Source: an uncultured Oscillospiraceae bacterium
GTDB taxonomy: Bacteria > Bacillota > Clostridia > Oscillospirales > Oscillospiraceae
Reading direction: 5' to 3'
Assembly: GCA_934589155.1 (NCBI GenBank)
Contig: CAKTNP010000023.1
Span: 1 to 31,258, forward strand
DNA: 31,258 nt
Both the position numbers and the translations under genes were made by a program. Shown one piece after another: positions 429 through 31,258 of the stretch. Below the pieces are notes generated by a model that was not told the origin of the DNA, did not search any database, and was given only the letters and a program-made list of their open reading frames with translations. Position 1 is the stretch's first letter. Each line of letters opens with the position of its first letter.

Positions 429-467
429 ACCGGCCGGTTTCCGGCCTGTGCAGAAGGAGTGATCATG
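425..467 (+). repeat. Array spacer repeat, copy 1 (palindrome plus RBS)
   Basis: The spacer carries the perfect 14-bp palindrome AAACCGGCCGGTTT (427-440), which overlaps a hairpin GGCCGG-TTT-CCGGCC (432-446), followed by the Shine-Dalgarno sequence AGAAGGAG (452-459). The same spacer recurs at 1265, 2105 and 3488. No T-run follows, so it is not a normal intrinsic terminator; an mRNA processing or stabilising hairpin is possible. Confidence 0.85.
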
Positions 468-1268
468 ATGAAACGTATTTCCCTGCTTCTGGCCGCCGTC
501 CTGCTTCTGTCCCTGCTGACAGGCTGCGGTGACAGCGGCGTTCCCCGGGAATCCACCGTTGGGACCACCGCTCCCGTGCCCACGGACCCGCTCCCGACGC
601 TCCCGCCGGAGACTGTGCCGGAAACCGTCTCAACCACCCTTCCGCCGGAAACCGAGACTGCGGAAACCCGCGCGCCGGTCCCGCATCGTGACCCAGCCCG
701 GGAACGGCAAAAGGCTATGGAAGAAAAATTCGGCTTGGAGTTTTATTCCGCTCCTGGTTTGTACACCCTGCGGGATCCCGGTCGGGAGTTCGATTTTCAG
801 GACGGCAGCGCCGTCAAACTCACCATTCCGGAATCCTGGGAAGGCCGCGTGGTGGTTTTTGAAGTGGTCAATGACCAACCCGACCCAGGACCCTGGATCG
901 GCTCGATCACCGTAGTAGGCAAACCCCTGATGGAGGCTTACTGGAGAAACGATATGAGCGTCCGGGATTACACCATAACCCTGCAGCGGGCGTATAAGTA
1001 TGCCTACTATCGCGATGACGGAAATACGGATGCCATGTACCGGACTTATGTTGAGGAAGGAAAAGCCGCTGTTGTTGCCGAAGATGATACATTTGTTTAC
1101 GTTGTATACACAGACCAGTCACTTTCTCCTATCCCCGGATACCCCAGCGGCGGATCTCGGGATGATCTGAAAGCCATCATTACAGAAGAAGGGTATCAGG
1201 AGGCCGTCGGCGACATCACCTGCACCTTGGAAGAGGCCGTCGCTATGTGTTCCGTAGACGAAAACTAA
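468..1268 (+). CDS. Secreted lipoprotein, tandem array copy B
   Basis: 266 residues. Residues 1-20 form a lipoprotein signal peptide: KR, a long Leu/Ala core, and the lipobox LTGC with Cys20 as the lipidated residue. Residues 21-70 are a Pro/Thr/Glu-rich stalk, followed by a globular domain of about 190 residues and the conserved tail GDITCTLEEAVAMCSVDEN, whose two Cys could form a disulphide. The start chosen is ATG 468, 8 bases after AGAAGGAG; ATG 465 and GTG 459 are in frame, but the other copies have only the equivalent of 468. From about 551 to 908 the DNA matches copy C without a visible difference, pointing to recent duplication or gene conversion. Expected on the outer face of the membrane; no known family is recognised and no function is proposed. 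Confidence 0.85.
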   Translation: MKRISLLLAAVLLLSLLTGCGDSGVPRESTVGTTAPVPTDPLPTLPPETVPETVSTTLPPETETAETRAPVPHRDPARERQKAMEEKFGLEFYSAPGLYTLRDPGREFDFQDGSAVKLTIPESWEGRVVVFEVVNDQPDPGPWIGSITVVGKPLMEAYWRNDMSVRDYTITLQRAYKYAYYRDDGNTDAMYRTYVEEGKAAVVAEDDTFVYVVYTDQSLSPIPGYPSGGSRDDLKAIITEEGYQEAVGDITCTLEEAVAMCSVDEN

Positions 1269-1307
1269 ACCGGCCGGTTTCCGGCCTGTGCAGAAGGAGT
1301 GATCATA
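1265..1307 (+). repeat. Array spacer repeat, copy 2
   Basis: Same spacer as at 425: palindrome AAACCGGCCGGTTT, hairpin GGCCGG-TTT-CCGGCC and AGAAGGAG ahead of the next ATG at 1308. It differs from copy 1 only near the start codon (ATAATG in place of ATGATG). Confidence 0.85.
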
Positions 1308-2108
1308 ATGAAACGCATTTCCCTGCTCCTGGCCGCCGTTCTGCTTCTGTCCCTGCTGACGGGCTGCAGTGACAGCGGCATCCCCCGGGAATCCACCGTT
1401 GGGACCACCGCTCCCGTGCCCACGGACCCGCTCCCGACGCTCCCGCCGGAGACTGTGCCGGAAACCGTCTCAACCACCCTTCCGCCGGAAACCGAGACTG
1501 CGGAAACCCGCGCGCCGGTCCCGCATCGTGACCCAGCCCGGGAACGGCAAAAGGCTATGGAAGAAAAATTCGGCTTGGAGTTTTATTCCGCTCCTGGTTT
1601 GTACACCCTGCGGGATCCCGGTCGGGAGTTCGATTTTCAGGACGGCAGCGCCGTCAAACTCACCATTCCGGAATCCTGGGAAGGCCGCGTGGTGGTTTTT
1701 GAAGTGGTCAATGACCAACCCGACCCAGGACCCTGGATCGGCTCGATCTTCGTGGTAGGCAAGTCTCTGATGGAAGCCTATTGGAAGAACGATTGGAGTG
1801 TCGAGGATTACACCATAACCCTGCAGCGGGCGTATAAGTATGCCTACTATTGCGATGACGGAAATACGGATGCCATGTATCGGACTTATGTTGAGGAAGG
1901 GAAGGCCGCTGTTGTTGCCGAGGATGATACGTTTGTTTACATTGTGTACACAGACCAGTCACTTTCTCCTATCCACGGATATCCCCGCGGCGGATCTCGG
2001 GATGATCTGATCGCCCTCATTACGGAAGAAGGATATCAGGAGGCCGTCGGCGACATCACCTGCACCCTGGAAGAAGCCGTCGCCATGTGCTCCGTAGACG
2101 AAAACTAA
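1308..2108 (+). CDS. Secreted lipoprotein, tandem array copy C
   Basis: 266 residues, the same length as copy B and lying exactly 840 bp downstream of it. The layout is the same: signal peptide with lipobox LTGC (Cys20), Pro/Thr/Glu-rich stalk, one globular domain and the shared two-Cys tail. Residues from the stalk to the middle of the domain are identical to copy B. Differences cluster around residues 145-165 (IFVVGKSLMEAYWKNDWSVE against ITVVGKPLMEAYWRNDMSVR) and in the last 60 residues. The start ATG 1308 has AGAAGGAG 8 bases upstream. This patchwork of identical and diverged blocks is what gene conversion between neighbours would leave. Function unknown; exported lipoprotein by its signal sequence. 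Confidence 0.85.
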   Translation: MKRISLLLAAVLLLSLLTGCSDSGIPRESTVGTTAPVPTDPLPTLPPETVPETVSTTLPPETETAETRAPVPHRDPARERQKAMEEKFGLEFYSAPGLYTLRDPGREFDFQDGSAVKLTIPESWEGRVVVFEVVNDQPDPGPWIGSIFVVGKSLMEAYWKNDWSVEDYTITLQRAYKYAYYCDDGNTDAMYRTYVEEGKAAVVAEDDTFVYIVYTDQSLSPIHGYPRGGSRDDLIALITEEGYQEAVGDITCTLEEAVAMCSVDEN

Positions 2109-2147
2109 ACCGGCCGGTTTCCGGCCTGTGCAGAAGGAGTGATCATA
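2105..2147 (+). repeat. Array spacer repeat, copy 3
   Basis: Same palindrome, hairpin and Shine-Dalgarno spacer as at 425 and 1265, directly after the stop codon of copy C and ahead of ATG 2148. Confidence 0.85.
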
Positions 2148-3491
2148 ATGAAACGTATTTCCCTGCTTCTGGCCGCCGTTCTGCTTCTGGCCCTGCTGAC
2201 AGGCTGCGGCGACAGCGGCGGACCTACGGAACCCTCTGCGGCTCCTACCGCCCCCGAAACGACGATTCCCACCACGGAAGCAGCCATAGTTCCCGCCCAG
2301 CGGGAATTCGGCCCGGATAACCGAAACCTGATCAACGAGCAGGGCTTTAGTGCCGATTTCTATTCCAACCCTTCTCTTTATACCGCCTTGTACCCTGCCA
2401 ATAGGCATGTGCAATGGGCAGATCGGGATTTTGAACTCCGTATCCCGGATGACTGGAGCAACCGGATTGAAATATTTTTCGTGATCAATCCGTCCTCTCC
2501 CGACGCGGACGTCTATGACAGCAAACTCTGCGCCGTCAGCGTCGTCAGCAAAAAGCTCCTGAATATCTGCAATAACGACCTGGGGCTTTTGTCCTATGAC
2601 TTTGCCTTTACCATCCAGCTTGTGGACACAGCGGATTACCCCGGCAGCTGCTACGAAGCCTGGGTCAATAACGGCGAAGCGGCCATTATGGACGAGTACA
2701 AGGACCAGTACTACATTCTCTACACCGATCAGTCCCTGCTTACGCCGGAATTGGGAAAGGACACGCCCTACGCCGTCGGTGACTCGGATCAGCTGAAGGA
2801 ACTCCTGACCCCCGAAGGGTATAAAGCCGCTAAGGACGGTATCACCTGCACCCTGGAAGAAGCCAAAGCCATGTGCAAGCTGGACGCGCACGGGCCATAC
2901 AGTGACATTCGCCGTATAAAGGACTATGACCTGCAAATGAGCAGGGGCGGATTTCAGCTGCCGGAGTTTGACCGGGAGATCCGTCTGCCAGATTGGCCCT
3001 GCACCATAACCCTCCCGGAGGAATGGGTGGATAAAGTCAACGTCTACGTGGACTTCGAGGATGACGTTTATAAATACTACTTCCAGGAATCCCGGGGACA
3101 CAGCTTTTTCCGGGTTTGGGTCACACCCAAGTCCATAATCGATTTGTACGACACTGTTATTGAAAATGCCACCACGCCGGAGACGGACTACACGCTCTGC
3201 CTGGGCTGTGTAGATACTGGAAATCCGGGGAAGATTTTGGACAGCATCCAGGCCCAGATCGATGCCGGAAACGCCGCCGTCATCGGCCAGGTGGGAGATT
3301 ACCTCTACTACGTCATGACGGACCAGACCCTGGACCTTTCTCAGGAATACAGCCGTGCCCCCAACACCCGGAAAGCGCTTATGGAAGCTCTGGAAGAAGA
3401 GGGGACCGAATATCTGTACGACGAGGCCCGGGGCGACATCACCTGCACCCTGGAAGAGGCCATCGCTATGTGCTCCGTAGACGAAAATTAA
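2148..3491 (+). CDS. Secreted lipoprotein with doubled domain, array copy D
   Basis: 447 residues, against 266-271 for its neighbours. It has the shared signal peptide with lipobox LTGC (Cys20) and a shorter Thr/Pro stalk (about 21-55). Two tandem copies of the family domain follow: residues about 60-245, closing with DGITCTLEEAKAMCKLD, and about 255-447, closing with RGDITCTLEEAIAMCSVDEN. The inner copy of the two-Cys tail shows that it arose by internal duplication or fusion of two array members after loss of the intervening signal peptide. Both domains are clearly diverged from copies B and C, with shared landmarks such as IPDDW or LPEEW and YYxLYTDQSL or YYVMTDQTL. The start ATG 2148 has AGAAGGAG upstream. 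Function unknown. Confidence 0.85.
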   Translation: MKRISLLLAAVLLLALLTGCGDSGGPTEPSAAPTAPETTIPTTEAAIVPAQREFGPDNRNLINEQGFSADFYSNPSLYTALYPANRHVQWADRDFELRIPDDWSNRIEIFFVINPSSPDADVYDSKLCAVSVVSKKLLNICNNDLGLLSYDFAFTIQLVDTADYPGSCYEAWVNNGEAAIMDEYKDQYYILYTDQSLLTPELGKDTPYAVGDSDQLKELLTPEGYKAAKDGITCTLEEAKAMCKLDAHGPYSDIRRIKDYDLQMSRGGFQLPEFDREIRLPDWPCTITLPEEWVDKVNVYVDFEDDVYKYYFQESRGHSFFRVWVTPKSIIDLYDTVIENATTPETDYTLCLGCVDTGNPGKILDSIQAQIDAGNAAVIGQVGDYLYYVMTDQTLDLSQEYSRAPNTRKALMEALEEEGTEYLYDEARGDITCTLEEAIAMCSVDEN

Positions 3492-3530
3492 ATCGGCCGG
3501 TTTCCGGCCTGTGCAGAAGGAGTGATCATA
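3488..3530 (+). repeat. Array spacer repeat, copy 4
   Basis: Fourth copy of the spacer. The outer arm has lost symmetry (AAATCGGCCGGTTT), but the GGCCGG-TTT-CCGGCC hairpin and AGAAGGAG are kept, suggesting that the hairpin rather than the longer palindrome is what is conserved. Confidence 0.8.
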
Positions 3531-4346
3531 ATGAAACGCATTTCCCTGCTCCTGGCCGCCGTCCTGCTTCTGTCCCTGCTGACGGGCTGCGGTGACAGCG
3601 GCGTCCCCCGGGAATCCACCGTTGGGACCACCGCTCCCGTGCCCACGGACCCGCTCCCGACGCTCCCGCCGGAGACTACCGTCCCAACGACCCTTCCGCC
3701 GGAAACCGAGACTACGGAAACCAGCCCCGAAACTGTCCCCGACGGTGGGGACGGGTCCGTCACCATGCCTCCTTCGGATTGGCAGAAGGAGAACATCGAG
3801 GAAAAATTCGGCGTGGAAACCTACAACGCCCCAGCGTATTTCCTGTTAAAGGATCCGGGACTGGAAATCGGTTTCCAAGATGGTTCCCCCGTAACGCTGA
3901 ATCTCCCCGAGTCCTGGGCGGGAAAATACTATGTGATCGAGATAATCTATGGCATCCACGCCGGAGGCTATGACCCCACCGAGCGGATCTGGAGCATCTG
4001 CGTCGTCAGCAAGGACGTCTTGCAGACTTACTGGAAGGTCTTTGACTACCGCAGTTTCGACTACGCTTTGGTCCTGCATCGGATGCTAATTGATGAATAC
4101 GAAAGCACGCTGGAGTGGCGGGAGGAGCAAGGCATAACCACAGGGGGCGCCGTAGTTGCTCAGGACGATCAATATGTTTACATTGTAGACACCTATGAAA
4201 CCGCCGGCGGCGATGGTTTTTGTGCCGCATCCCGAGAAAAACTTCTTTCCAAAATTTCCGAGGAGGAGTATCTGGAGGCCCAAGGTGACATCACCTGCAC
4301 CCTGGAAGAAGCCGTCGCCATGTGCTCCGTAGATCCGGAGGAATGA
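3531..4346 (+). CDS. Secreted lipoprotein, array copy E (last member)
   Basis: 271 residues. Signal peptide and lipobox LTGC (Cys20) are as in the other copies; the Pro/Thr/Glu stalk (about 21-85) differs in length and repeat number, with blocks such as PTLPPETT and PETETTETSPET. The single C-terminal domain is the close relative of the truncated copy A at the window start, not of copies B or C. The protein ends SVDPEE instead of SVDEN. The order of types along the array is therefore E-like, B, B, D, E. A strong terminator follows 14 bases after the stop, so this is the last gene of the transcription unit. The family is unrecognised and the function unknown. Confidence 0.85.
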   Translation: MKRISLLLAAVLLLSLLTGCGDSGVPRESTVGTTAPVPTDPLPTLPPETTVPTTLPPETETTETSPETVPDGGDGSVTMPPSDWQKENIEEKFGVETYNAPAYFLLKDPGLEIGFQDGSPVTLNLPESWAGKYYVIEIIYGIHAGGYDPTERIWSICVVSKDVLQTYWKVFDYRSFDYALVLHRMLIDEYESTLEWREEQGITTGGAVVAQDDQYVYIVDTYETAGGDGFCAASREKLLSKISEEEYLEAQGDITCTLEEAVAMCSVDPEE

Positions 4347-20247: not shown

Positions 20248-21129
20248 TTACAGGGTGCGCTCAGCGGCCTCCACCACGTGCTTCATAAGTACGGAGGTGG
20301 TCACGCTTCCCACGCCGCCGGGCACCGGGGTGATCGCTTCCACAATAGGTTCAACCTCGCTGAACACGGCGTCGCCGGCAATGGCGCCCTTGCCGCCCTT
20401 GCTGTTCTCCTTCTCAGGATCCCAGTTGATGGACACGTCAATGACGACCTGGCCGGGACGGACGAAGTCCTTGGTCAAGGAGTTGAGCACACCGGCAGCA
20501 GACACCAGAATATCCGCGGACTTGGCGATCTCCGCCGTGTTCACGGTCTTGGTGTGGCAGACGGTGACGGTGGCATTCTTGCCCATGAGCATCATGGCTG
20601 CGGGCTTGCCCACCACCAGGCTCCGGCCGATGACCACAGCGTTCTTGCCCTTGCAGTCGATGCCGTAGAAATCCAGGATCTCCATGCAGGCCTCGGGGGT
20701 GCAGGGGGCAAAGCCCAGATCCTTCCGGCCCTCAAACACGCCGGCGTTGGACAGGTCCGTCATGCAGTCCACGTCCTTCTTGGGGTCCAGGCGATTGCAG
20801 ATCTCGTTCTGGTCGGCCTTCAGGTGCTTGGGCAGGGGCCGGAACATGAGAACGCCGTGGATGGAAGCATCGGCGTTAATCTCGTCGATCTTGGCAAGCA
20901 GAGCCTCCTTGGTCACATCCTCGGGCAGCTCGAACTTCACCACGTTCACACCCACCAGCTCGGCCCGCTTGGTGGCGCCCCGCTCATAGCTCAGGTCGCT
21001 GGGGTTGGCGCCGCAGCGGACGATGGCCAGGGTGGGAACAACGCCCTTTTCCCGGAGAGCAGCGGTGCGCTCCTGGAGCTTGCCGTTCAATGCATCGGTA
21101 ACTTCCTTGCCCAATAACAGTTTTGCCAT
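20248..21129 (-). CDS. folD: Bifunctional methylene-THF dehydrogenase / methenyl-THF cyclohydrolase
   Basis: 293 residues. It interconverts methylene- and methenyl-tetrahydrofolate with NAD(P) and can hydrolyse the latter to formyl-THF, in the cytoplasm. The family is clear from GRSLVVGKPAAMML (168-181), the DVDCMTD block at 120 and PVPGGVGSVTTSVLM near the end. The substrate-site motif is the variant Tyr48-ERGAT-Lys54 (YX5K) and the MFRPLPKHL loop replaces the usual QLPLP, a form seen in clostridial FolD as far as recalled. Start ATG 21129 has AAGGAG 8 bases upstream. It follows fchA by 19 bases. Since a separate cyclohydrolase is encoded next to it, FolD may mainly act as dehydrogenase here. 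Confidence 0.95.
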   Translation of the reverse strand: MAKLLLGKEVTDALNGKLQERTAALREKGVVPTLAIVRCGANPSDLSYERGATKRAELVGVNVVKFELPEDVTKEALLAKIDEINADASIHGVLMFRPLPKHLKADQNEICNRLDPKKDVDCMTDLSNAGVFEGRKDLGFAPCTPEACMEILDFYGIDCKGKNAVVIGRSLVVGKPAAMMLMGKNATVTVCHTKTVNTAEIAKSADILVSAAGVLNSLTKDFVRPGQVVIDVSINWDPEKENSKGGKGAIAGDAVFSEVEPIVEAITPVPGGVGSVTTSVLMKHVVEAAERTL

Positions 21130-21148: not shown

Positions 21149-21763
21149 TCAGAAATTCGCCCGCACATCGGCAAAGATTTCCTCTGCCAGTGCGCAGTAT
21201 TTGCTCAGCATAACGTTTGCCTGCCGGTTCAGCTCCTCGGCCACGGCCCGGTCCTTCAGGCTCTTGGTGTTGATAAACACGTTGAGAGAAGCGGCCTGGA
21301 GGGCAGCCTTGCAGCAAACGGCGCCGCAGCCCGCATCGGACACAGCCAGACGGCTGCCCTTTTCTGCGAAGATCTTGATATAGTCCAGGGCCTCGCAGCA
21401 TTTTTCCATGATCTCCATGGGGACCTTGCAGGCCTCCACGGTAGCCTTCTCCAGGATCTCGGCCCGGTTGGGGTCGTCCTTGGGGATGCCGTAGGCCTTG
21501 GCCAGGGGCTCGAAGCCCTCGGCGTCCTTCTTCACCAGATCCAGAAGCTCCGTCTGAAGGGTATCGCACTTGGCCTTCAGGTCCAGGATCTCCGCCTCTA
21601 CGTCGGCATACTTCTTCTTGCCCACGGTAAGGGAACCCACCATGTTGCCCAGGGCCGTGCCCACGGCGCCCACCAGGGCCGCCGCGCCGCCGCCGCCGGG
21701 GGTGGGAGCGGAAGAGGCCAGAACCTCCACAAATTTCCGGCAGGATTCGTTGGTCATATCCAT
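21149..21763 (-). CDS. fchA: Methenyl-THF cyclohydrolase (FTCD C-terminal domain family)
   Basis: 204 residues, a single cyclodeaminase/cyclohydrolase domain of the usual length. The signature SAPTPGGGGAAALVGAVG (18-35) and GNMVGSLTVGKKKY follow the family, which is an all-helical enzyme. In acetogens it converts formyl-THF to methenyl-THF. Start ATG 21763 has AAAGGAG 7 bases upstream. Placed between fhs and folD, it completes the branch formate, formyl-THF, methenyl-THF, methylene-THF. A glycine-histidine role as formimino-THF cyclodeaminase is the alternative, less likely in this context. Confidence 0.93.
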   Translation of the reverse strand: MDMTNESCRKFVEVLASSAPTPGGGGAAALVGAVGTALGNMVGSLTVGKKKYADVEAEILDLKAKCDTLQTELLDLVKKDAEGFEPLAKAYGIPKDDPNRAEILEKATVEACKVPMEIMEKCCEALDYIKIFAEKGSRLAVSDAGCGAVCCKAALQAASLNVFINTKSLKDRAVAEELNRQANVMLSKYCALAEEIFADVRANF

Positions 21764-22206: not shown

Positions 22207-23880
22207 TTAGAACAGGCCGGAGATCTTGCCGTCCTCGTCCACGTCGATGCGCTCGGCAGCGGGGACCTTGGGCAGACCGGGCATGGTCATGATCTCACCG
22301 GTAAGAGCCACCAGGAAGCCCGCACCGGCGGAGACCTTTACGTTCCGGACAGTGATGGTGAAGCCCGTGGGGGCGCCCAGCTTGGTCTGGTCGTCGGTGA
22401 AGGAGTACTGGGTCTTGGCCATGCAGATGGGCATCTTGTCGTAACCCAGCTCCGTCAGGGTCTTGATCTGCTTCTCGGCGTTGGCGGTGAAGTTTACGCC
22501 GTCACCGTGGTAGATCTTCTTCACGATGGCCTCGATCTTGTCCTTGATGGGCATATCCACGTCATAGGAGAAGGTAAAGTCGTTGGGCTGCTCGCAGAGC
22601 CGGATGACCTCATTGGCCAGAGCAATGCCGCCTTCGCCGCCCTTGCCCCAGACCTCGCTGAGGGCAACGTTGACGCCCAGCTCCTTGCACTTCTCTTCCA
22701 CCAGCTTCAGCTCCGCCTCGGTGTCCTGGGGGAACCGGTTGATGGCCACCACGCAGGGCAGCTTGTAAACCTTGGTGATGTTCTCCACGTGCCGCAGCAG
22801 GTTGGGCAGGCCCTTCTCCAGCGCCTCCAGGTTTTCCTTGCCGGTCTCGGCCTTGGGAACGCCGCCGTTGTACTTCAGGGCGCGGACGGTAGCCACCAGA
22901 ACCACGCAGGAGGGATGCAGGTTTGCCATCCGGCACTTGATGTCCAGGAACTTCTCGGCACCCAGGTCGGCACCGAAGCCTGCCTCGGTGACGGTGTAGT
23001 CCGCCAGGCGCATGGCGATCTTGGTAGCGGTCACGGAGTTGCAGCCGTGAGCGATGTTAGCGAAGGGTCCGCCGTGGACAAAGGCGGGGGTGTGCTCCAG
23101 AGTCTGAACCAGGTTGGGCTTCAGGGCGTCCTTCAGCAGGGCGGCCATGGCGCCCTGGGCCTTCAGATCACCGGCGGTGACGGGCTTGCCGTCCCGGGTA
23201 TAGGCCACCACCAGGCGGGCCAGGCGAGCCTTCAGGTCGTTGATGTCAGAGGCCAGGCACAGAACAGCCATGATCTCGGAAGCCACGGTGATGTCGTAGC
23301 CATCCTCACGGGGCACACCGTTGGCCTTGCCGCCCAGGCCGTCCACCACATTCCGCAGCTGCCGGTCATTCATGTCCACGCAGCGGCGCCAGGTGATCTG
23401 CCGGGGGTCGATGTTCAGAGCGTTGCCCTGATAGATGTGGTTGTCCAGCATGGCGGCCAGCAGGTTGTTGGCAGCACCAATGGCGTGGAAGTCGCCGGTG
23501 AAGTGGAGGTTGATGTCCTCCATGGGAACGACCTGTGCATAGCCGCCGCCGGCCGCACCGCCCTTGACGCCGAAAACGGGGCCCAGAGAGGGCTCACGCA
23601 GGGCCACCAGCACGTTCTTGCCCAGACGCCGCATGCCGTCGGCCAGACCCACCGTCGTGGTGGTCTTGCCCTCGCCGGCGGGGGTGGGGTTGATGGCGGT
23701 GACCAGGATCAGCTTGCCGTCGGGCCGCTTGACCTCTTTGAGGATGTTGTAGTCTACCTTCGCCTTGTACTTGCCGTACTGCTCCAGGTACTTCTCGTCC
23801 ACACCGGCGGTCTTAGCGACCTCGGTAATGGGCTGCATTACGGTTTCCTGTGCGATCTCGATGTCGGTCTTGAATTCCAT
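22207..23880 (-). CDS. fhs: Formate-tetrahydrofolate ligase
   Basis: 557 residues, the standard length. It makes 10-formyl-THF from formate, THF and ATP, the entry step of the methyl branch of the Wood-Ljungdahl pathway. The ATP loop is [17 protein letters not shown], with downstream blocks [29 protein letters not shown] and [14 protein letters not shown] that are near invariant in the family. Start ATG 23880 has AAGGAG 9 bases upstream; a longer frame to 23940 lacks such a site. It has its own strong promoter at 24025-24053 and is followed by the small unknown, fchA and folD. Confidence 0.97.
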
Positions 23881-24024
23881 AACTGTACTCTCCTTGTATT
23901 GTGTGTTGGAGCCCTTGTCGTTGGAATGGCGCGGGTCCATACAGGATTTATGAAAAAAGCCGTTGGTGTGACTTTTTACATACGGTGTCAGCAGGGTTTT
24001 ATTCGGTATCCCTGTATCGATATA
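23881..24024 (-). other. Long fhs leader with possible attenuator
   Basis: About 135 bases from the predicted start of transcription to the fhs ATG. On the - strand it holds CAGGG/CCCTG (5 bp), the stretch AAAAAG to CTTTTTT (a terminator-like hairpin with only a few extra pairs), and a long-range pair ATACAGG with CCTGTAT. No tetrahydrofolate riboswitch core is recognised. Confidence 0.4.
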
Positions 24025-24082: not shown

Positions 24083-24694
24083 TTACATGGCCGCCTTGAT
24101 TGCGCCGATGAGCAGGTCCCCGGCCACCACCCGGTCCTCGGCAGCAAAGCCTCCGGCGAAATTGTCGGAATACAGGACCTGGGCGCTGGGGGGAAATTCC
24201 TCGTCCCCGGCCCACAGCAGGATCTCCATGAAGTAGGGACCGAAGAACCGGAACCGATAACCCGCCTCGCCGCTTTTCAGGGGCTCCGCCCCCAGCTTCT
24301 CGCAGGCGGCCCGGAAGGCGGGCAGCCTGGTGCCGAAGGTGAAAGCCGCCCGGGTCAGGACCCGTCCGGTGTAGGGGCCGATGTACATCTCGCCCCAGGG
24401 CATTTCCCGGAAGGTCTTGTAGGTGCCCGTGGAGGGCACCTCCTTCCCCTCCAGCAGGATCCGGAGAAGATAGGTCTGGGTGGGCAGACCGGGGGCCGGA
24501 CCCTTATCCACAGGCCGAACCTCCGCCGAGGGCCACAGGACCCGGTAGGTCCTGCCCAGTAAGGTCATGGTGAATGCCTCCCCATCAAAGGGGAGCTCAG
24601 GCCAGCGGGCCAGGGCCTCTTTTGGGTCCAGCGCCGCAAAGAGCCCGGCGTAATGGGAAAAGGGCACCTCTTCCTTATGATTTTCCACCTGCAT
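24083..24694 (-). CDS. DUF3786 protein linked to the acetyl-CoA synthase genes
   Basis: 203 residues. Recognised as DUF3786 from its pattern: an N-terminal helical part (SHYAGLFAALDPKEALARWP), then FTMTLLGRTYRVLWP, the block FREMPWGEMYIGPY, and RFRFFGPYFMEILLWAGDEEFPPSAQVLYSDN. The family is of unknown function, found in anaerobes, often with corrinoid or acetyl-CoA pathway genes. Start ATG 24694 has AGGAGG 7 bases upstream and lies 2 bases after the stop of the corrinoid activator gene, so the two are translationally coupled. A role in corrinoid or nickel centre assembly is inferred from position only. No Cys cluster is visible. Confidence 0.8.
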   Translation of the reverse strand: MQVENHKEEVPFSHYAGLFAALDPKEALARWPELPFDGEAFTMTLLGRTYRVLWPSAEVRPVDKGPAPGLPTQTYLLRILLEGKEVPSTGTYKTFREMPWGEMYIGPYTGRVLTRAAFTFGTRLPAFRAACEKLGAEPLKSGEAGYRFRFFGPYFMEILLWAGDEEFPPSAQVLYSDNFAGGFAAEDRVVAGDLLIGAIKAAM

Positions 24695-24696
24695 AC

Positions 24697-26625
24697 TTAG
24701 GCCTCCTGAACGCTGTGGGGGAACCGAGCCGCATCGGTATGGGGGATGAAGCAAGCCGCCACGAAGGCGTCCATATAGCCCGGATGGGTGGACAGCTCCA
24801 TGTAGGTCATGTTCCGGGCCACTTCCTCGGTCTTGGCCTCGGCCTCGTCGCTCATGACCATAGCATAGGCGCCGGTCAGGGACGAGTTACCGATATAGGT
24901 GAACTTATCCAGATCTACGTCCGGGAACATGCCGATATTCACCGTATTTTTCATATTGATGCCGGAGCCGATACCGCCGGCCACGTACACATGGTCGATC
25001 ATGTCCACGTCCATATCCACAGACTTGAGCAGCACGTCAATGGCGGAGAAAATGGCGCCCTTGGCCCGGATGAAGTTGTCGATGTCCACCTCGTTGATGG
25101 AGATCTCACGCTCCGTCTCGGATTCCTGGGGCCAGGCCAACACATACCGGCCCATGCCGTGATGGTCCCGCTCCACCCGCTTGCCCTCTTTTACAAACAG
25201 GCCCTTGGCGTTGATGATGCCGCAGCGGAACAGCTCAGAGATAATATCGATAATGCCGGAGCCGCAGATGCCCACGGGCTTCTGGCCGGGATCGCCCACG
25301 ATGGAAAGCTTGGGTTCCATGGTGTCCTTGTCAATGACGCAGGCCTCAATGGCGCCGTCGGTGGCACGCATGCCGCAGGAGATGTCGCCGCCCTCAAAGG
25401 CAGGGCCCGCAGAGCAGGCGCAGGACATAAGGAAGTCCCGGTTGCCGAAGACGATCTCACCGTTGGTGCCCAGGTCGATGAACAGACTCATTTCGTCCTT
25501 GTCCCAGATCAGGCTGGCCAGAGCGCCGGCGGTAATGTCGCCGCCCACATAGGAGCCGATGTTGGGCGAGACCAGTACGTCTGCCAGTGGATGGGCCGGC
25601 AGCTTCAGGTCCCCGGCCTTCAGGCCCTTCCAGTGAAAGAAGGAGGGAATGTAGGGCTCCATCCGCACGGACTGGGCGTCCACCCCCACGAACAGATGGT
25701 TCATGGTGGTATTGGCCGCCACGCAGAACTTCAAAATGCTGGTGGCCTTCACGTTGGCGCTCTTGCAGAGATTGATGATAATAGGGTCCAGGGTCTCCTT
25801 GATAATGGCATCCTGGAGCTTTTTCTTGCCGCCGGGCTTACCCTGCTCAATGATCCGGTTGATGACGTCGGCGCCGAAGCGGATCTGGCCGTTGCCGGAG
25901 GAGCCCTTGGCCAGGATCTTGCCGGTGGTCAGGTCCAGCAGCACCATGGTCACGGTAGTGGTACCGATGTCAATGGCGCAGCCGATGAGGGCCTTGTCCT
26001 CCGGCGGACACACATCCAGCACGGTAAACACGCCATCCTTCAATTCGCCCTTAACTGTCACGTGGAAGTCATTTTCCCGCAGGGTGGCCGCCAGCTTCAC
26101 CATGGCGTAATAGGGGGTATCCACCCGGTCAACCCCCAGCTGCTCCTGAAGGGCCCAGTCCAGCCGCTCGTTGTCGGGCATGGTGTCCTCCAGGGTGGGC
26201 TCCGCCAGTTGGACCTCCACCGCCCGGAGGCTGTTGGTAAAGGAAATACCCGCGGCCTGCAGATCGTGCTGCATGGCCTCGAAAATGGCTACCTCCTTGC
26301 CTGTGGACAGGTCGGCGGTCTTCATCCGGCTTTGGTAAGCCGAGGCAATGTCCGGCACCAGCACGGTCACGTCCTCGCAGATCTGGCTGGCGCAGGACAG
26401 CCGCCAACCCTCTTTATATTCCTCATCGGAGATGTGGCGGGTCTTGGGCCCCTCCACCTGGCCGGAAATCAGCTTGACCCGGCATTTGCCGCAGGATCCG
26501 TTGCCGGAGCATGGGGCGTCAATGGCCACATTTGCCCGGCGGGCCGCTTCCAGGAGGTTGTCTCCGGCGTTGCATTCAATTTCAACGGGGCTTCCGCCCT
26601 CAATTTGGAAGGTTACTTTGAACAT
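24697..26625 (-). CDS. acsV: Corrinoid protein reductive activator (RACo / AcsV)
   Basis: 642 residues. It restores the active Co(I) state of the corrinoid iron-sulfur protein in an ATP-driven electron transfer. The N-terminal [2Fe-2S] ferredoxin domain has Cys39, Cys45, Cys48 and Cys78 (CX5CX2CX29C). A linker domain and the ASKHA-type ATPase follow, with phosphate loop CAIDIGTTTVTMVLLDL, SLFIDLGTNGEIVFGN and CGSGIIDIISELF. Start ATG 26625 has GAGAGG 7 bases upstream. It stands next to acsB and upstream of the DUF3786 gene, as expected for an activator dedicated to the acetyl-CoA pathway and not to methanol or methylamine methyltransferases. Confidence 0.94.
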   Translation of the reverse strand: MFKVTFQIEGGSPVEIECNAGDNLLEAARRANVAIDAPCSGNGSCGKCRVKLISGQVEGPKTRHISDEEYKEGWRLSCASQICEDVTVLVPDIASAYQSRMKTADLSTGKEVAIFEAMQHDLQAAGISFTNSLRAVEVQLAEPTLEDTMPDNERLDWALQEQLGVDRVDTPYYAMVKLAATLRENDFHVTVKGELKDGVFTVLDVCPPEDKALIGCAIDIGTTTVTMVLLDLTTGKILAKGSSGNGQIRFGADVINRIIEQGKPGGKKKLQDAIIKETLDPIIINLCKSANVKATSILKFCVAANTTMNHLFVGVDAQSVRMEPYIPSFFHWKGLKAGDLKLPAHPLADVLVSPNIGSYVGGDITAGALASLIWDKDEMSLFIDLGTNGEIVFGNRDFLMSCACSAGPAFEGGDISCGMRATDGAIEACVIDKDTMEPKLSIVGDPGQKPVGICGSGIIDIISELFRCGIINAKGLFVKEGKRVERDHHGMGRYVLAWPQESETEREISINEVDIDNFIRAKGAIFSAIDVLLKSVDMDVDMIDHVYVAGGIGSGINMKNTVNIGMFPDVDLDKFTYIGNSSLTGAYAMVMSDEAEAKTEEVARNMTYMELSTHPGYMDAFVAACFIPHTDAARFPHSVQEA

Positions 26626-26718: not shown

Positions 26719-28845
26719 TTACATCAGGGGATCCAGGCCCAGAACAGGGTGGCCCTTCTCGGTGAGCCAGTTCAGCAGTTCCTCGCAGTCGGTGGTGACG
26801 GTCTCGTCGGCCACCATGTCGATGAAGTTGTCAATGCCGTAGAGCTCCTTGGCGGTCTTGTTCACCCGCTCGCCCACATCGTCCTTCAGCTCCTTGGGCA
26901 TCCAGACGATACGCTCAATGCCGCCCTCGGCAGCGATGAACTTCTTGGAGGAGATGAAGTGACGGCCGTGGCCCATATAGCCGGGGGTCTGAACGCCGCC
27001 GCCGGTGCAGGAGGCCAGCTCGCCGAAGGTCATGCCGGCGGGGGTCATGCCCTTGTATTCCCGGTTCACCACAATGAAGCCGTTGGACATGGGCTCGATG
27101 CCGCAGATGCACTCGAAGCAGCCGCAGGAGGTCATGGGATCCTCCAGGATAGAGTACAGGGTCACATTCTCCACGGCGCCATGGGTGGCCTCGGCCACCA
27201 TCTTGTTGACGGATTCATACCGGCCGGTGCGCTCGTCCAGGCAGCCCTCCTTGAAGATGGGCTGGCAGGGGCCGTTGGGGTTCAGCTCATTGGTAGCCTT
27301 GGCATCCAGCCAGGACACGGCGCCGCAGAGGCCCAGCCGCTCGGGGGTGACCACGCAGCAGTGGGCGGGGGCGAAGGACTGGCACAGGATGCAGGTGTAA
27401 TAGCGGTCCACGGACTCGTCGGTCATGGACAGGAGCCGGTCGTCACGCTCATTATACCGGGGCATAGCCAGCTCGTCACGGAACTTTCCGGCGGCCTCGG
27501 CATCGGTGATCAGGGTGATCTGACACTTATCCACAACGGCATCGAACTCGTCCATGATCATGACATACAGAACCTCGGCAAAATCCTTCATCCGCAGGCC
27601 CTTATCATAGGCATCGTTGGATACACGGATCCGGACCTGGTTCCGCTGGCCGGTGTGCATGACGCCCTCCATGTAGTTGAACCAGGCGTGGATCTTCCGC
27701 TCGATGACGGACTCGAAGTCGGCCTGCATCTTAGCGCCGGCCACCTCGATAAAGGTACCCAGAGCCAGGTCCTTCTGGTCGCAGAGGTCAGGGCCCTGAA
27801 TGGTGATCTTGTGATCCTCGATCTCGCCGGGATCCCGCATGAGTACCAGCTCGGCGGTAGGATTCTTGGAGGACCAGATCTCGTTGTGCATATCGGCCTT
27901 CCGGATGATCTCACCCTCGAAGGCGGCGGCGAAGGCCACGGGGATGGGCAGCTCCTTCACCTTGATCTTGATGCCCCGCAGCTCCAGGGAGTGCTTCACG
28001 GTCATGGAGTGATCGGTAACGGACTCTAGGGCGCCGGGGACCTGATTCTCGCCCAGGTCGATGTCCACCACCACGGGGAAGCCCAGAGCGATAGCGCCGG
28101 CACCGGCGGAAACCACCACATTGTCGATGGCGCCGAAGGTGTTGACGAAGGCGGGCACACGCTCCTTGGTATACTTCAGCAGGGCCGCCAGGTCACCGGC
28201 AGGCACGTTGCCGAAGATCAGAGCCGCACGGATGGCCACGGTGACCACATGGATCACGGCGGTGACGTCGTGGCCCAGAGGCACGATACGGAACTCCAGT
28301 CCCATCTTCACGCCGCCCTCAGCGCACTGCTCGATGACGTCGCCCACCAGGAAGGTCATGATGCCTTTGGACTGGTAGTCCTTCACCACGTTCACCACGT
28401 CGGCGGCGTTGTCGGCCTTGCCCAGGACCACCGCCACACCGGGAATATCGCCGGTGACCAGAGGCACGCCCAGGGACCGGATCACAGGATCCGGAACGAA
28501 GCCGATGCCGGAATCGTTGGCGTAGGGCTCGGCGCCGTCCACATACTTCAGGCCCTCCAGGATCTCAGCGCCCACGGCGGTGGCAAGACCGGCGTTCAGG
28601 GCCTGGCCCAGGTCCTCCTGATTGGTGATGAGGCTCTTGAGGACGCCCACGCAGGCGGGCAGGTCTCCCAGGGTCTTGACCTTCACGCCGGTGGCCGCGT
28701 AGATCGTGGGGAAGAAGTACGCAGTATCGGGGAAGGCGATCTCTTTGTCCGGGCCGTACTTGGCGATGGCGTCATTGACGGCGCCCTCGGTCAGGCCGGC
28801 TACGGCGTTGGAACCGCCATAGATCAGGTCAGTTAACACGCTCAT
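26719..28845 (-). CDS. acsB: Acetyl-CoA synthase (CODH/ACS alpha/beta catalytic subunit)
   Basis: 708 residues, 21 shorter at the N-terminus than the Moorella enzyme as recalled. It joins CO, a methyl group from the corrinoid protein and CoA into acetyl-CoA. The nickel-iron A-cluster ligands are all present with exact spacing: Cys485, Cys488, Cys497, Cys507 for the [4Fe-4S] part and Cys574-Gly-Cys576 for the distal nickel. The N-terminal domain that binds CO dehydrogenase is retained, as in bacterial and not archaeal proteins. Start ATG 28845 has GGGAGG 8 bases upstream. It lies downstream of the AcsC-AcsE fusion gene. The partner AcsA is not in the window. Confidence 0.97.
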   Translation of the reverse strand: MSVLTDLIYGGSNAVAGLTEGAVNDAIAKYGPDKEIAFPDTAYFFPTIYAATGVKVKTLGDLPACVGVLKSLITNQEDLGQALNAGLATAVGAEILEGLKYVDGAEPYANDSGIGFVPDPVIRSLGVPLVTGDIPGVAVVLGKADNAADVVNVVKDYQSKGIMTFLVGDVIEQCAEGGVKMGLEFRIVPLGHDVTAVIHVVTVAIRAALIFGNVPAGDLAALLKYTKERVPAFVNTFGAIDNVVVSAGAGAIALGFPVVVDIDLGENQVPGALESVTDHSMTVKHSLELRGIKIKVKELPIPVAFAAAFEGEIIRKADMHNEIWSSKNPTAELVLMRDPGEIEDHKITIQGPDLCDQKDLALGTFIEVAGAKMQADFESVIERKIHAWFNYMEGVMHTGQRNQVRIRVSNDAYDKGLRMKDFAEVLYVMIMDEFDAVVDKCQITLITDAEAAGKFRDELAMPRYNERDDRLLSMTDESVDRYYTCILCQSFAPAHCCVVTPERLGLCGAVSWLDAKATNELNPNGPCQPIFKEGCLDERTGRYESVNKMVAEATHGAVENVTLYSILEDPMTSCGCFECICGIEPMSNGFIVVNREYKGMTPAGMTFGELASCTGGGVQTPGYMGHGRHFISSKKFIAAEGGIERIVWMPKELKDDVGERVNKTAKELYGIDNFIDMVADETVTTDCEELLNWLTEKGHPVLGLDPLM

Positions 28846-28993: not shown

Positions 28994-31258
28994 TCAGATC
29001 TCCAGATAGGAGTCGGAATACAGCTCGTGATTCTTGATGATGTCGCAGGTCTTGATGGTCTCCATGAGCCGCCGGTCGCAGGGGTTCACGATGGCGGAGG
29101 TCAGACCCTGCATCATGGCCATAGCGACCATGGCGGAGTCCATGATGGGACGCACGTCCTTGGGGGCGCCGTTGGAGTTGTTGGACAGGCCGCCGGTGGA
29201 CTTCAGTCCCTCGTCAGCGAAGAGCTTGATGGCGTTCAGCACATCCATCTGCTTGTCCTGCATGCCCTTGACCACCAGGAACAGGGGGTCGAACCACAGG
29301 TCGGAGGAGTCCATGCCCAGGGACAGGCCACGCTCCAGCATGTTGTGGCAGTGCTCCATCCGCTCCTCATTGTCCTTGGCAATGCCGTCGGCGGAGCAGA
29401 GGGCGATACAAATGGCGTCGTTGGCAGCAGCCAGATCAATGTTCTCAATACGGCTGCCGGCGTCGGCGGAGTTCACGATGGGCTTGCCGTTGGTCCGGTT
29501 GTAGACCTTGATACCGGCCTCAATGGCCTTCTTGTTGGCGGTATCCAGAGCCAGAGGCACGTTGTCGAAGTTCTGCTGCAGCAGCTGAACCGCCCACATC
29601 ATACGCTCGGGGCCGTCCTTCTCGGCAGGTCCGATGTTCACGTCCAGATAGGTGGCACCGGCGGCGATCTGCTCGGCGGCACGCTTCAGGATGGGGGCGG
29701 GATCACGCTCGTCCATAGCACGGCGGATGGAGGGGCTGATGCAGTGGATCCGCTCGCCGATGGTGACGAAGGTCTTGGCCTCGGGGTTGTGGCCCTTGTA
29801 CTTGACGCCCATGTCCACCACTTCGATGGCGGGGACCTTGAGCTTGATGGCCTCGAAGTCCAGGGGCTTGTCCTCTTCCACGGGGGCAGCCTCGGCAGCG
29901 GGTGCGGGAGCGGCCACGGGGGCCTCCTCGCCGCCCACGGCGTACTCCTTGTCCTTCATAAACTTAGGCAGCTGCACCGCCTCGGTGGGGCCGACCACGA
30001 CCTTCCAGCCGGGCAGCTTTTCCTGGATCTCACCCTTCATGACGGCAACCTTGCCGGGGATGATCAGGGTCCGGGACTTGATCTTGTTCTCGATGTCGTT
30101 GTCCACGAAGAACTTCTTGATGGAGTTGGAGGAGAACTTGCCGGCGGCCCAGGCGGTCAGAACGGACATACCGGAGGCGTCGGTGATCAAGAGGTTCACG
30201 GGGCAGTTGCTCCGCTCCAGCTCGCCGGAGACCAGGAAGTAGGTCAGAGCGAAGTCCACGGTCAGGGCGCAGGGGCTGTTCTCGTCGGCCCCGTTCAGGG
30301 GGTAGATCTTAGCCTCCACCTTCATGGGCTTCTGAGGATCGGTGTAGATGTTCTGCCGCAGGCCGTACAGAGGCAGGGCCTCGGCGTAGGTCATCTGGTC
30401 CATAACGATGATGGAGCCATACTTCTCGGTGAACATGGCGGCATAAGCGGTCTGCAGGCGGCTGTCACCAGCGGCGACCTTCGCCAGGTTCACGATGGAG
30501 GGATAACCGAAGGTCCGGTCTCCATCCTTCAGGGCGGTCCGGCGGACCAGGACGGCATTCTTCAGAGCTTCCTTGGCGTTGGCGCCGGTGCAGTCGATGA
30601 TGAGGTTCTTGTTGCCCAGCTTCTCCAGAGCGGCCACGGTGTCGTAGATCTCCTCGATGGAGGAGCCCTTCACGCCCAGAACGGCCTTGCCCATAACGGC
30701 GGCGTTCATGGCCTCATAGCACTTGGAGCAGGCGCCCAGGACGATCACGTCGGAGGTCACGGCCACAACGGCGGCAGCCACGTCAGCATCGCTGGTCTCC
30801 ACGATGGGGTACCGGCCGGAATCCAGGACCTTCTTGGTAAGGGCCACCACGGCGTCGGCAGCGGCGTCGGCCTCGATGTACACGAACTCCACGTACTCCC
30901 GCTCGCCGATCCGCTCATAGTCAATCTTGGCAGCCTCGGCCAGCTTCTTCTCGGCCTCGGCCTCGTCGGAAGCTTTCACGGTGATGGCGAAACGGTTCCG
31001 GGACACCAGGGTCTTCTCATGACGGAACAGGACGGTCTCGCCGCCCAGCTTGATGTCGCCCACGGAGATGGTCTTCATGGGGGGCGCAGTAGCCTCGGAC
31101 AGCTTGGCTACGGCGTCAGGGGAAAAGTACGGGCACTTGTCGATGGTCACAGCGCCCTGGGCCACCTTCATGCAGAATGCCATACAGGTGGGGCTGCCGC
31201 ACTCCTTACAGTTCTTCTTCGGAGACAGCTTAAAAATATCCAGACCTTTCAAAGCCAT
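28994..31258 (-). CDS. acsC-acsE: Fusion of corrinoid protein large subunit (AcsC) and methyl-THF methyltransferase (AcsE)
   Basis: 754 residues in one frame. The start ATG is the last three bases of the window and begins the usual AcsC sequence, so the gene is complete. Residues 1 to about 435 are AcsC, the large corrinoid iron-sulfur subunit, with its [4Fe-4S] motif Cys17, Cys20, Cys25, Cys42 and a corrinoid-handling domain. Residues 442-465 are a flexible Ala/Pro/Glu linker. Residues about 496-754 are a complete AcsE methyltransferase barrel: TIGERIH, YLDVNIGPA, LALDTANKKAIEAG, IVNSADAG, WFDPLFL and GLSNNSNG match the pterin-binding residues of the Moorella enzyme. In acetogens known to me these are separate proteins that must dock for methyl transfer; here they are tethered. 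AcsD is not seen. Confidence 0.93.
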   Translation of the reverse strand: MALKGLDIFKLSPKKNCKECGSPTCMAFCMKVAQGAVTIDKCPYFSPDAVAKLSEATAPPMKTISVGDIKLGGETVLFRHEKTLVSRNRFAITVKASDEAEAEKKLAEAAKIDYERIGEREYVEFVYIEADAAADAVVALTKKVLDSGRYPIVETSDADVAAAVVAVTSDVIVLGACSKCYEAMNAAVMGKAVLGVKGSSIEEIYDTVAALEKLGNKNLIIDCTGANAKEALKNAVLVRRTALKDGDRTFGYPSIVNLAKVAAGDSRLQTAYAAMFTEKYGSIIVMDQMTYAEALPLYGLRQNIYTDPQKPMKVEAKIYPLNGADENSPCALTVDFALTYFLVSGELERSNCPVNLLITDASGMSVLTAWAAGKFSSNSIKKFFVDNDIENKIKSRTLIIPGKVAVMKGEIQEKLPGWKVVVGPTEAVQLPKFMKDKEYAVGGEEAPVAAPAPAAEAAPVEEDKPLDFEAIKLKVPAIEVVDMGVKYKGHNPEAKTFVTIGERIHCISPSIRRAMDERDPAPILKRAAEQIAAGATYLDVNIGPAEKDGPERMMWAVQLLQQNFDNVPLALDTANKKAIEAGIKVYNRTNGKPIVNSADAGSRIENIDLAAANDAICIALCSADGIAKDNEERMEHCHNMLERGLSLGMDSSDLWFDPLFLVVKGMQDKQMDVLNAIKLFADEGLKSTGGLSNNSNGAPKDVRPIMDSAMVAMAMMQGLTSAIVNPCDRRLMETIKTCDIIKNHELYSDSYLEI

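Follow-up and report, generated by a model that had tools for sequence, protein, structure and literature searches.

AcsCE, a fusion of the corrinoid protein large subunit AcsC with the methyltransferase AcsE in a clade of Oscillospiraceae-like gut bacteria

In split acetogen systems, the corrinoid iron-sulfur protein (CFeSP) meets the methyltransferase (MeTr), acetyl-CoA synthase (ACS) and the activator one after another. The entry titles of the solved structures 4djd, 9fzy and 4c1n are those of CFeSP complexes with methyltransferase, ACS or activator. In Thermoanaerobacter kivui, acsD, acsC, acsE and acsB lie in that order in a single operon, according to the available part of the report (PMC4320612). 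The gene described here, designated acsC-acsE and its product AcsCE, has the same domain families and active-site residues as split AcsC/AcsD (CFeSP) and AcsE (MeTr) (PDB 4djd, 9fzy, 1f6y), and the neighbours acsD, acsB, acsV and DUF3786 are common to fused and split loci. It differs from the split acetogen systems in being one chain rather than two, with a linker of ~39-60 residues that contains a conserved segment, and a separate acsE was not found in the 16 fused genomes searched.

In MetH, homocysteine, folate, cap, B12 and activation domains are joined in one chain, so that a pterin-binding methyltransferase and a corrinoid domain share a polypeptide, as they do in AcsCE. AcsCE differs from MetH in having a CdhD-family corrinoid domain, the opposite domain order and an Fe-S domain, and it does not have the MetH domain set, since Pfam finds FeS, CdhD and Pterin_bind only and no homocysteine or activation domains. 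Another acetogen fusion of methyltransferase and corrinoid protein genes is mtaA-mtaC of Moorella thermoacetica; as far as the available text goes, it belongs to a methanol system built from other families, with neither CFeSP nor AcsE (PMC13391211). CFeSP has also been proposed, in the portions available of two papers, as a direct methyl donor to homocysteine via MesB, or core-MetE (PMC7857596, PMC7005905). MesB has the MetE fold, whereas the candidate acceptor in the AcsCE genomes is a lone PF02574 domain, and in contrast to the MesB systems the AcsCE genomes contain acsE, as a fusion with acsC.

The fused gene and its neighbours

The window, i.e. the whole stretch of DNA analysed (31,258 nucleotides from an uncultured Oscillospiraceae bacterium), contains the following features of the fused gene.

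28994..31258, minus strand: acsC-acsE fusion gene (AcsCE), 754 aa (ORF translation, Pfam, NCBIfam, solved structures)
31127..31222, minus strand: FeS domain, residues 13-44, Cys 17/20/25/42 (PF04060)
29960..31054, minus strand: AcsC barrel and B12-binding domain, CdhD, residues 69-433 (PF03599, NF003195, PDB 9fzy/4djd)
29861..29950, minus strand: unconserved spacer, residues 437-466, Ala/Pro/Glu-rich here (majority-residue fraction 0.528; AF2 pLDDT <50 at 443-464)
29774..29860, minus strand: more conserved linker segment, residues 467-495 (alignment; without counterpart in split AcsE)
28997..29773, minus strand: AcsE methyl-THF methyltransferase domain, residues 496-754 (NF040758, alignment to 1f6y)

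The original prediction, made from the sequence of the window, was of a single uninterrupted 754-codon frame joining a full AcsC to a full AcsE, and both parts of that claim held. The frame, 31258-28994, is stop-free: its ATG lies at 31258 and its stop codon occupies 28996-28994. Both halves exceed curated NCBIfam cut-offs: the AcsC half scores 453.7 bits against 306 with NF003195 (residues 1-437) and the AcsE half 469.7 bits against 370 with NF040758, the CODH/ACS methyltransferase model (residues 496-754). Pfam places the FeS domain, CdhD and Pterin_bind (518-725) in the chain and nothing else. Residues 1-436 match solved CFeSP large subunits (9fzy, E 1.4e-132; 2h9a, 4c1n and 4djd), and residues 495-753 match solved methyl-THF:CFeSP methyltransferases, e.g. 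1f6y and 2yck. The window stops at the first base of the AcsCE ATG, such that the upstream genes, acsD included, are out of view; since the first residues of AcsCE and of the solved AcsC chains coincide in the alignment, the N-terminus looks complete. The predicted CX2CX4CX16C site at 17-42 was read directly from the translation as C17-x2-C20-x4-C25-x16-C42, and its four Cys are invariant across the 47-row alignment of AcsCE. In the AcsE half, D572, N596, D657 and N693 align with the active-site D/N/D/N of 1f6y. We assume for these folate-site residues the roles assigned in work on the Moorella enzyme.

The linker was accurately described in its first part, where residues 442-465 are rich in Ala, Pro and Glu; its second part, residues 467-495, had been overlooked. 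This segment is more conserved, with a mean majority-residue fraction of 0.644 compared with 0.528 in the spacer, 0.856 in the B12 domain and 0.908 in AcsE. Among the 47 rows P476 is invariant, and I478, D482, V485 and Y487 are each present in >=90%. The split AcsE proteins compared mostly start 3 residues ahead of the F497 equivalent and lack any counterpart of the segment; at that start position, 83 fused proteins have Ser (63), Ala (19) or Arg (1). Linker length between BLAST ends varies from 39 residues (L081) to 60 (L037). A 25-residue slice of the spacer from 83 fused proteins, the window's own left out, consists of 41% Ala, 14% Glu and 13% Lys; EAAAK-like motifs (EAAAK, AENAAK, AERAAK or AAAKAA) occur in 51 of the 83 and >=3 Pro in 6. 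Because spacers elsewhere are mostly Ala, Glu and Lys, the Ala/Pro/Glu make-up of the window is a local trait, and the initial argument for a real fusion from a composition like that of swinging arms is weak. An AF2 model of AcsCE is mediocre (mean pLDDT 73.7, with residues 690-754 below 50); within the linker it gives values below 50 at 443-464 and near 80 at 470-489, in a model that is weak overall. Foldseek confirmed the domain families only, and the AF2 model gave no usable evidence for docking of the linker segment or for cis/trans pairing. We take the spacer to be slack; that segment 467-495 is a docking element is a guess. The idea that the linker came from a translated acsE leader was dropped, as no clear trace was seen in the DNA.

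Downstream of AcsCE, the order is acsB, acsV and the DUF3786 gene, then fhs, the FchA-like and the folD-like gene.

26719..28845, minus strand: acsB, acetyl-CoA synthase, 708 aa (NF040764, 986 bits)
24697..26625, minus strand: acsV / RACo, corrinoid activator, 642 aa (NF040756, 946 bits)
24083..24754, minus strand: DUF3786 protein, adjoining acsV in fused and split loci (PF12654)
22207..23940, minus strand: fhs, formate-THF ligase (NF010030)
21149..21763, minus strand: FchA-like cyclohydrolase, FTCD_C (PF04961; NF045657 192 bits, under the cut-off of 275)
20248..21129, minus strand: folD-like dehydrogenase/cyclohydrolase (PF02882/PF00763; the FolD models listed all under their cut-offs)

Among 80 fused loci (see below), acsD is present in 78, and the remaining two start inside or at acsC. 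The DUF3786 gene, an uncharacterised conserved member of the cluster, was found after acsV in 48 of the 80 fused loci and in 29 of 37 that are split. Elsewhere in the window, positions 459-4346 hold four head-to-tail paralogous lipoprotein-like genes with near-identical signal peptides at their start, and a partial frame at the left edge has the same end sequence as these genes.

Distribution of the fused form

Among the best 120 of 7998 scored homologues, all 120 have CdhD and Pterin_bind, at lengths of 726-765 aa, and P0009 alone is without the Fe-S domain. A genome scan gave 527 confirmed relatives; all of the best 80 of these 527 loci are fused in one stop-free frame, and no second AcsC- or AcsE-like frame was found in any of the 80. 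The fused protein served as query, so that this set leans to fused members; therefore genomes were also drawn without that selection and queried with the AcsE half (E 1e-40), some of them belonging to more than one draw. Of 391 genomes from the class of G001, 19 matched AcsE; the order of G001 gave 10 of 394 and the order of G008 18 of 392. By frame length, 1, 6 and 1 of these matches, respectively, are fused. On this measure, every match in these three draws is either a long fused frame or a stand-alone frame of 262-295 aa. G641, the sole long-frame match far from the others, was placed in the fused clade on the trees. The G001 record (L014) is titled Pseudoflavonifractor sp. MSJ-30 and the G008 record (L056) Lachnospiraceae bacterium.

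Of 400 genomes drawn from the G001 family, 106 have an AcsE match: 38 with full fused frames of 743-848 aa, 60 that are split, with frames of 116-323 aa, and 8 with incomplete pieces at 86-88% identity. In the three of these eight that were retrieved (L137, L138, L140), AcsC runs into AcsE and is cut by a contig edge. Counting the eight, the fused form occurs in 46 of the 106 AcsE-bearing genomes. The original prediction had considered that the fusion might already be described as the common form of its lineage; it is common there, and a description was not found in the literature searched, which covered few subscription papers. For example, the available sections of PMC10103890, PMC11474084, PMC3584212, PMC4320612 and PMC13391211 describe no AcsC-AcsE fusion. 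Each of 16 genomes selected among the 80 loci has one AcsE-level match (83-94%), which sits in a frame of 754-848 aa; a stand-alone second acsE was not found in any of the 16, and the remaining matches are 25-34% identical. A linker remnant in the longer split AcsE frames (282-323 aa) was considered and rejected, as open frame precedes the normal start.

An assembly or frameshift artefact could in theory merge two adjacent genes, and acsC and acsE are indeed adjacent in split relatives, where a miscalled stop could mimic a fusion. However, all 80 kept loci are fused, across many assemblies; the linkers of ~39-60 residues differ in sequence yet share a conserved segment; and Met stands at the old AcsE start position in 0 of 83 proteins. 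The probability of an artefact is negligible. Because the fusion is found in 80/80 loci and as 38 full-length frames in the family draw, it is no assembly error, in agreement with the initial proposal of a real fusion, and the suggested search for the architecture across genomes confirmed that the CdhD-Pterin_bind fusion recurs, also throughout the best 120 homologues. It is a genuine fusion, old and widespread in one gut clade, in which a known pair of enzymes takes a variant form.

Origin of the fusion

Of 37 split loci, 34 have acsD, acsC and acsE together. In L085 neither acsC nor acsD could be located close to acsE, and in L108 and L120 the stretch examined showed no acsD. In L121, the nearest split genome, the gene order is metF-cooC-acsD-acsC-acsE-acsB-acsV, which recurs in many fused loci; 67 bases, with a Shine-Dalgarno-like sequence, separate acsC from acsE. 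The nearest split relatives thus have the two genes adjacent, and so the fusion would have come about by loss of the boundary, apparently in an ancestor of this large Oscillospiraceae-like gut clade, with one or two origins.

Before L121 was included, the fused rows formed one clade requiring one change both on the AcsE tree (68 rows; 100/100) and on the AcsC tree (SH-aLRT 97). When L121 and other split rows were added, two changes were needed, with L121 beside one fused subclade at 85/74. This placement of a split locus would be expected if the fusion had arisen twice, or once with a later re-split, and so would the fact that just 18% of bootstrap trees with L121 hold the fused rows together; the linkers of L076-L080 also look different. 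On the other hand, P-x-I and Y-K-x-x-x-P-x-[SA]-x-x-F are common to the linkers of both subclades in most rows, a single fused clade is not rejected (AU p 0.398), and the 67-base gap of L121 has no visible linker trace. We therefore regard two origins or a re-split as unlikely, though well short of negligible. The AcsC/AcsE distance ratio has a median of 2.45 among 3052 fused pairs and 1.63 among 592 split pairs, a difference that is suggestive, although the pairs are not independent.

Four records with the fusion are titled Lachnospiraceae (L056, L059, L068, L075), and the three put on trees (L056, L068, L075) nest within the fused clade, which suggests either horizontal transfer or wrong labels. 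The AcsC parts of L072 (G010) and L081 (G641) lie on long branches, yet keep the Cys site and the SVLTAWAAGK motif.

Proposed methyl transfer and a possible role in methionine synthesis

It is highly probable that AcsCE is a tethered methyltransferase and corrinoid carrier that came about by boundary loss and replaced the stand-alone acsE in this clade. In the working that we propose, the AcsE part would bind CH3-THF and methylate the reduced corrinoid on the B12 domain of AcsC, the partner subunit being AcsD; the B12 domain would next move to acetyl-CoA synthase (AcsB) and hand over the methyl group, and AcsV would reactivate oxidised corrinoid. The tether would lead from the end of the mobile B12 domain through the unconserved spacer and the more conserved, docking-like segment to the start of AcsE, and since the B12 domain is tethered to AcsE, the carrier would never leave its methylating enzyme. 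AcsE is a dimer in solved structures, so AcsCE would be expected as (AcsCE)2(AcsD)2 particles, with methylation in cis or between chains. Plausible benefits of the tether are fast remethylation and, as originally suggested, a raised local concentration and a fixed, equal stoichiometry.

Free AcsE might also be made from an internal start in the linker, such that tethered and free enzyme coexist. A Met codon does occur in the DMGV motif of the linker; it is codon 483 of the window's gene, and a fraction of 0.70 of the 47 rows have Met there. In raw counts the best Shine-Dalgarno-like match ahead of an in-frame start within 150 bases is 4/6 in 47 of 83 genes and 5/6 in 7 of 83. However, 27 of 36 split genes reach 5/6 or 6/6, despite the shorter stretch scanned, many rows have another residue in place of the DMGV Met, and the old start position is without Met in 83/83. 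An internal start is therefore improbable, and we retain the reading of AcsCE as a tethered enzyme.

Of 17 fused-type genomes, 14 have an AcsB match, as do 35 of 36 further ones. CooS is over the cut-off in 12 of the 17, and G009, with CooS in two pieces, is a 13th. The fusion is kept without an AcsB match and without CooS over the cut-off in L014 (G001), L072 (G010) and L081 (G641), and G1423 has no AcsB match. A role in acetyl-CoA synthesis alone does not explain G001, G010, G641 and G1423, unless the drafts are incomplete. Eight genomes (G002, G003, G004, G006, G007, G009, G012, G013) have two AcsB paralogues: one is 80-90% identical to that of the window and on the acsCE contig (near acsCE in 6 of 8), and the other is 52-59% identical and close to cooS. 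G005, G011, G014, G015 and G016 have only the 52-59% type.

Another potential role of AcsCE is that of the methyl-THF-to-corrinoid half of a distributed methionine synthase, which in some genomes would be its sole job. This was surveyed in 17 fused-type draft genomes of unstated completeness; a single absence means little in drafts, and the argument is therefore the agreement of eight genomes. Nine of the 17 (G002, G003, G005, G006, G007, G010, G013, G015, G641) have no pterin-binding domain PF00809 other than the one in AcsCE, and all of these but G007 are also without the MetH B12 cap, PF02607. None of the 17 has PF01717, the catalytic domain of MetE, and for this reason MesB was rejected as methyl acceptor. 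A lone homocysteine-methyltransferase domain is present in all seven tested of the eight genomes, and PF02574 was found in all 11 searched of the 17, in nine of them only as frames of 291-320 aa. When one lone domain was compared with solved structures, the nearest was Thermotoga MetH (1q7m, E 3e-35), with a homocysteine S-methyltransferase structure at E 7.8e-20. In G010 and G641, AcsB and CooS are both without a match, yet metF, acsD and acsCE lie side by side. G001, with no AcsB match and a weak CooS match only, has a separate corrinoid and pterin pair.

Against this role, the cells could depend on external methionine, other pterin domains are present in 8 of the 17 genomes, and the lone gene and acsCE are on different contigs in 10 of 10 genomes compared. 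In addition, six lone domains scanned were matched best by the model for the bifunctional homocysteine methyltransferase/MTHFR (NF006396), and the models that follow are mostly MetH or betaine-homocysteine methyltransferase. As NF006396 outranks MetH and all are below cut-off, AcsCE is no more than a candidate methyl donor for the lone domain. We consider the methionine role possible, but less likely than not. Its specific form, in which AcsCE and AcsD would serve two acceptors, ACS and a lone MetH-like homocysteine methyltransferase, and methionine alone where ACS and CODH were lost, is offered a little more tentatively still.

The fusion also bears on published surveys. In the available sections of a 2024 gut survey (PMC11338639), acsE is undetected in 78% of Oscillospirales CODH/ACS genomes (7/9 genera) and acsCDE are missing from the cooS context in 7/8 Oscillospirales genera. 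That survey used eggNOG-mapper annotation with K15023 listed for acsE, and its discussion gives no reason for the gap. Six of our loci (L001, L008, L011, L012, L018, L020), all fused, are titled Candidatus Faecousia, a genus that appears in the survey, and the fusion probably explains the undetected acsE. A rumen survey, as far as its available text shows, demands acsE among six genes for an acetogen call, which took 449 acsB-bearing MAGs to 69; 15 Oscillospirales genomes were retained, and Oscillospirales is one of its two most prominent acsB-bearing orders (PMC12449052). If annotation names the fused gene acsC only, such counts would be biased against Oscillospirales.

AcsCE is a natural test of how tethering affects a corrinoid carrier with several partners to visit. 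The fusion also points to a candidate path by which methionine could be made where MetH and MetE are absent. If the methionine role is true, a Wood-Ljungdahl part would have turned methionine synthase in some gut genomes without ACS and CODH.
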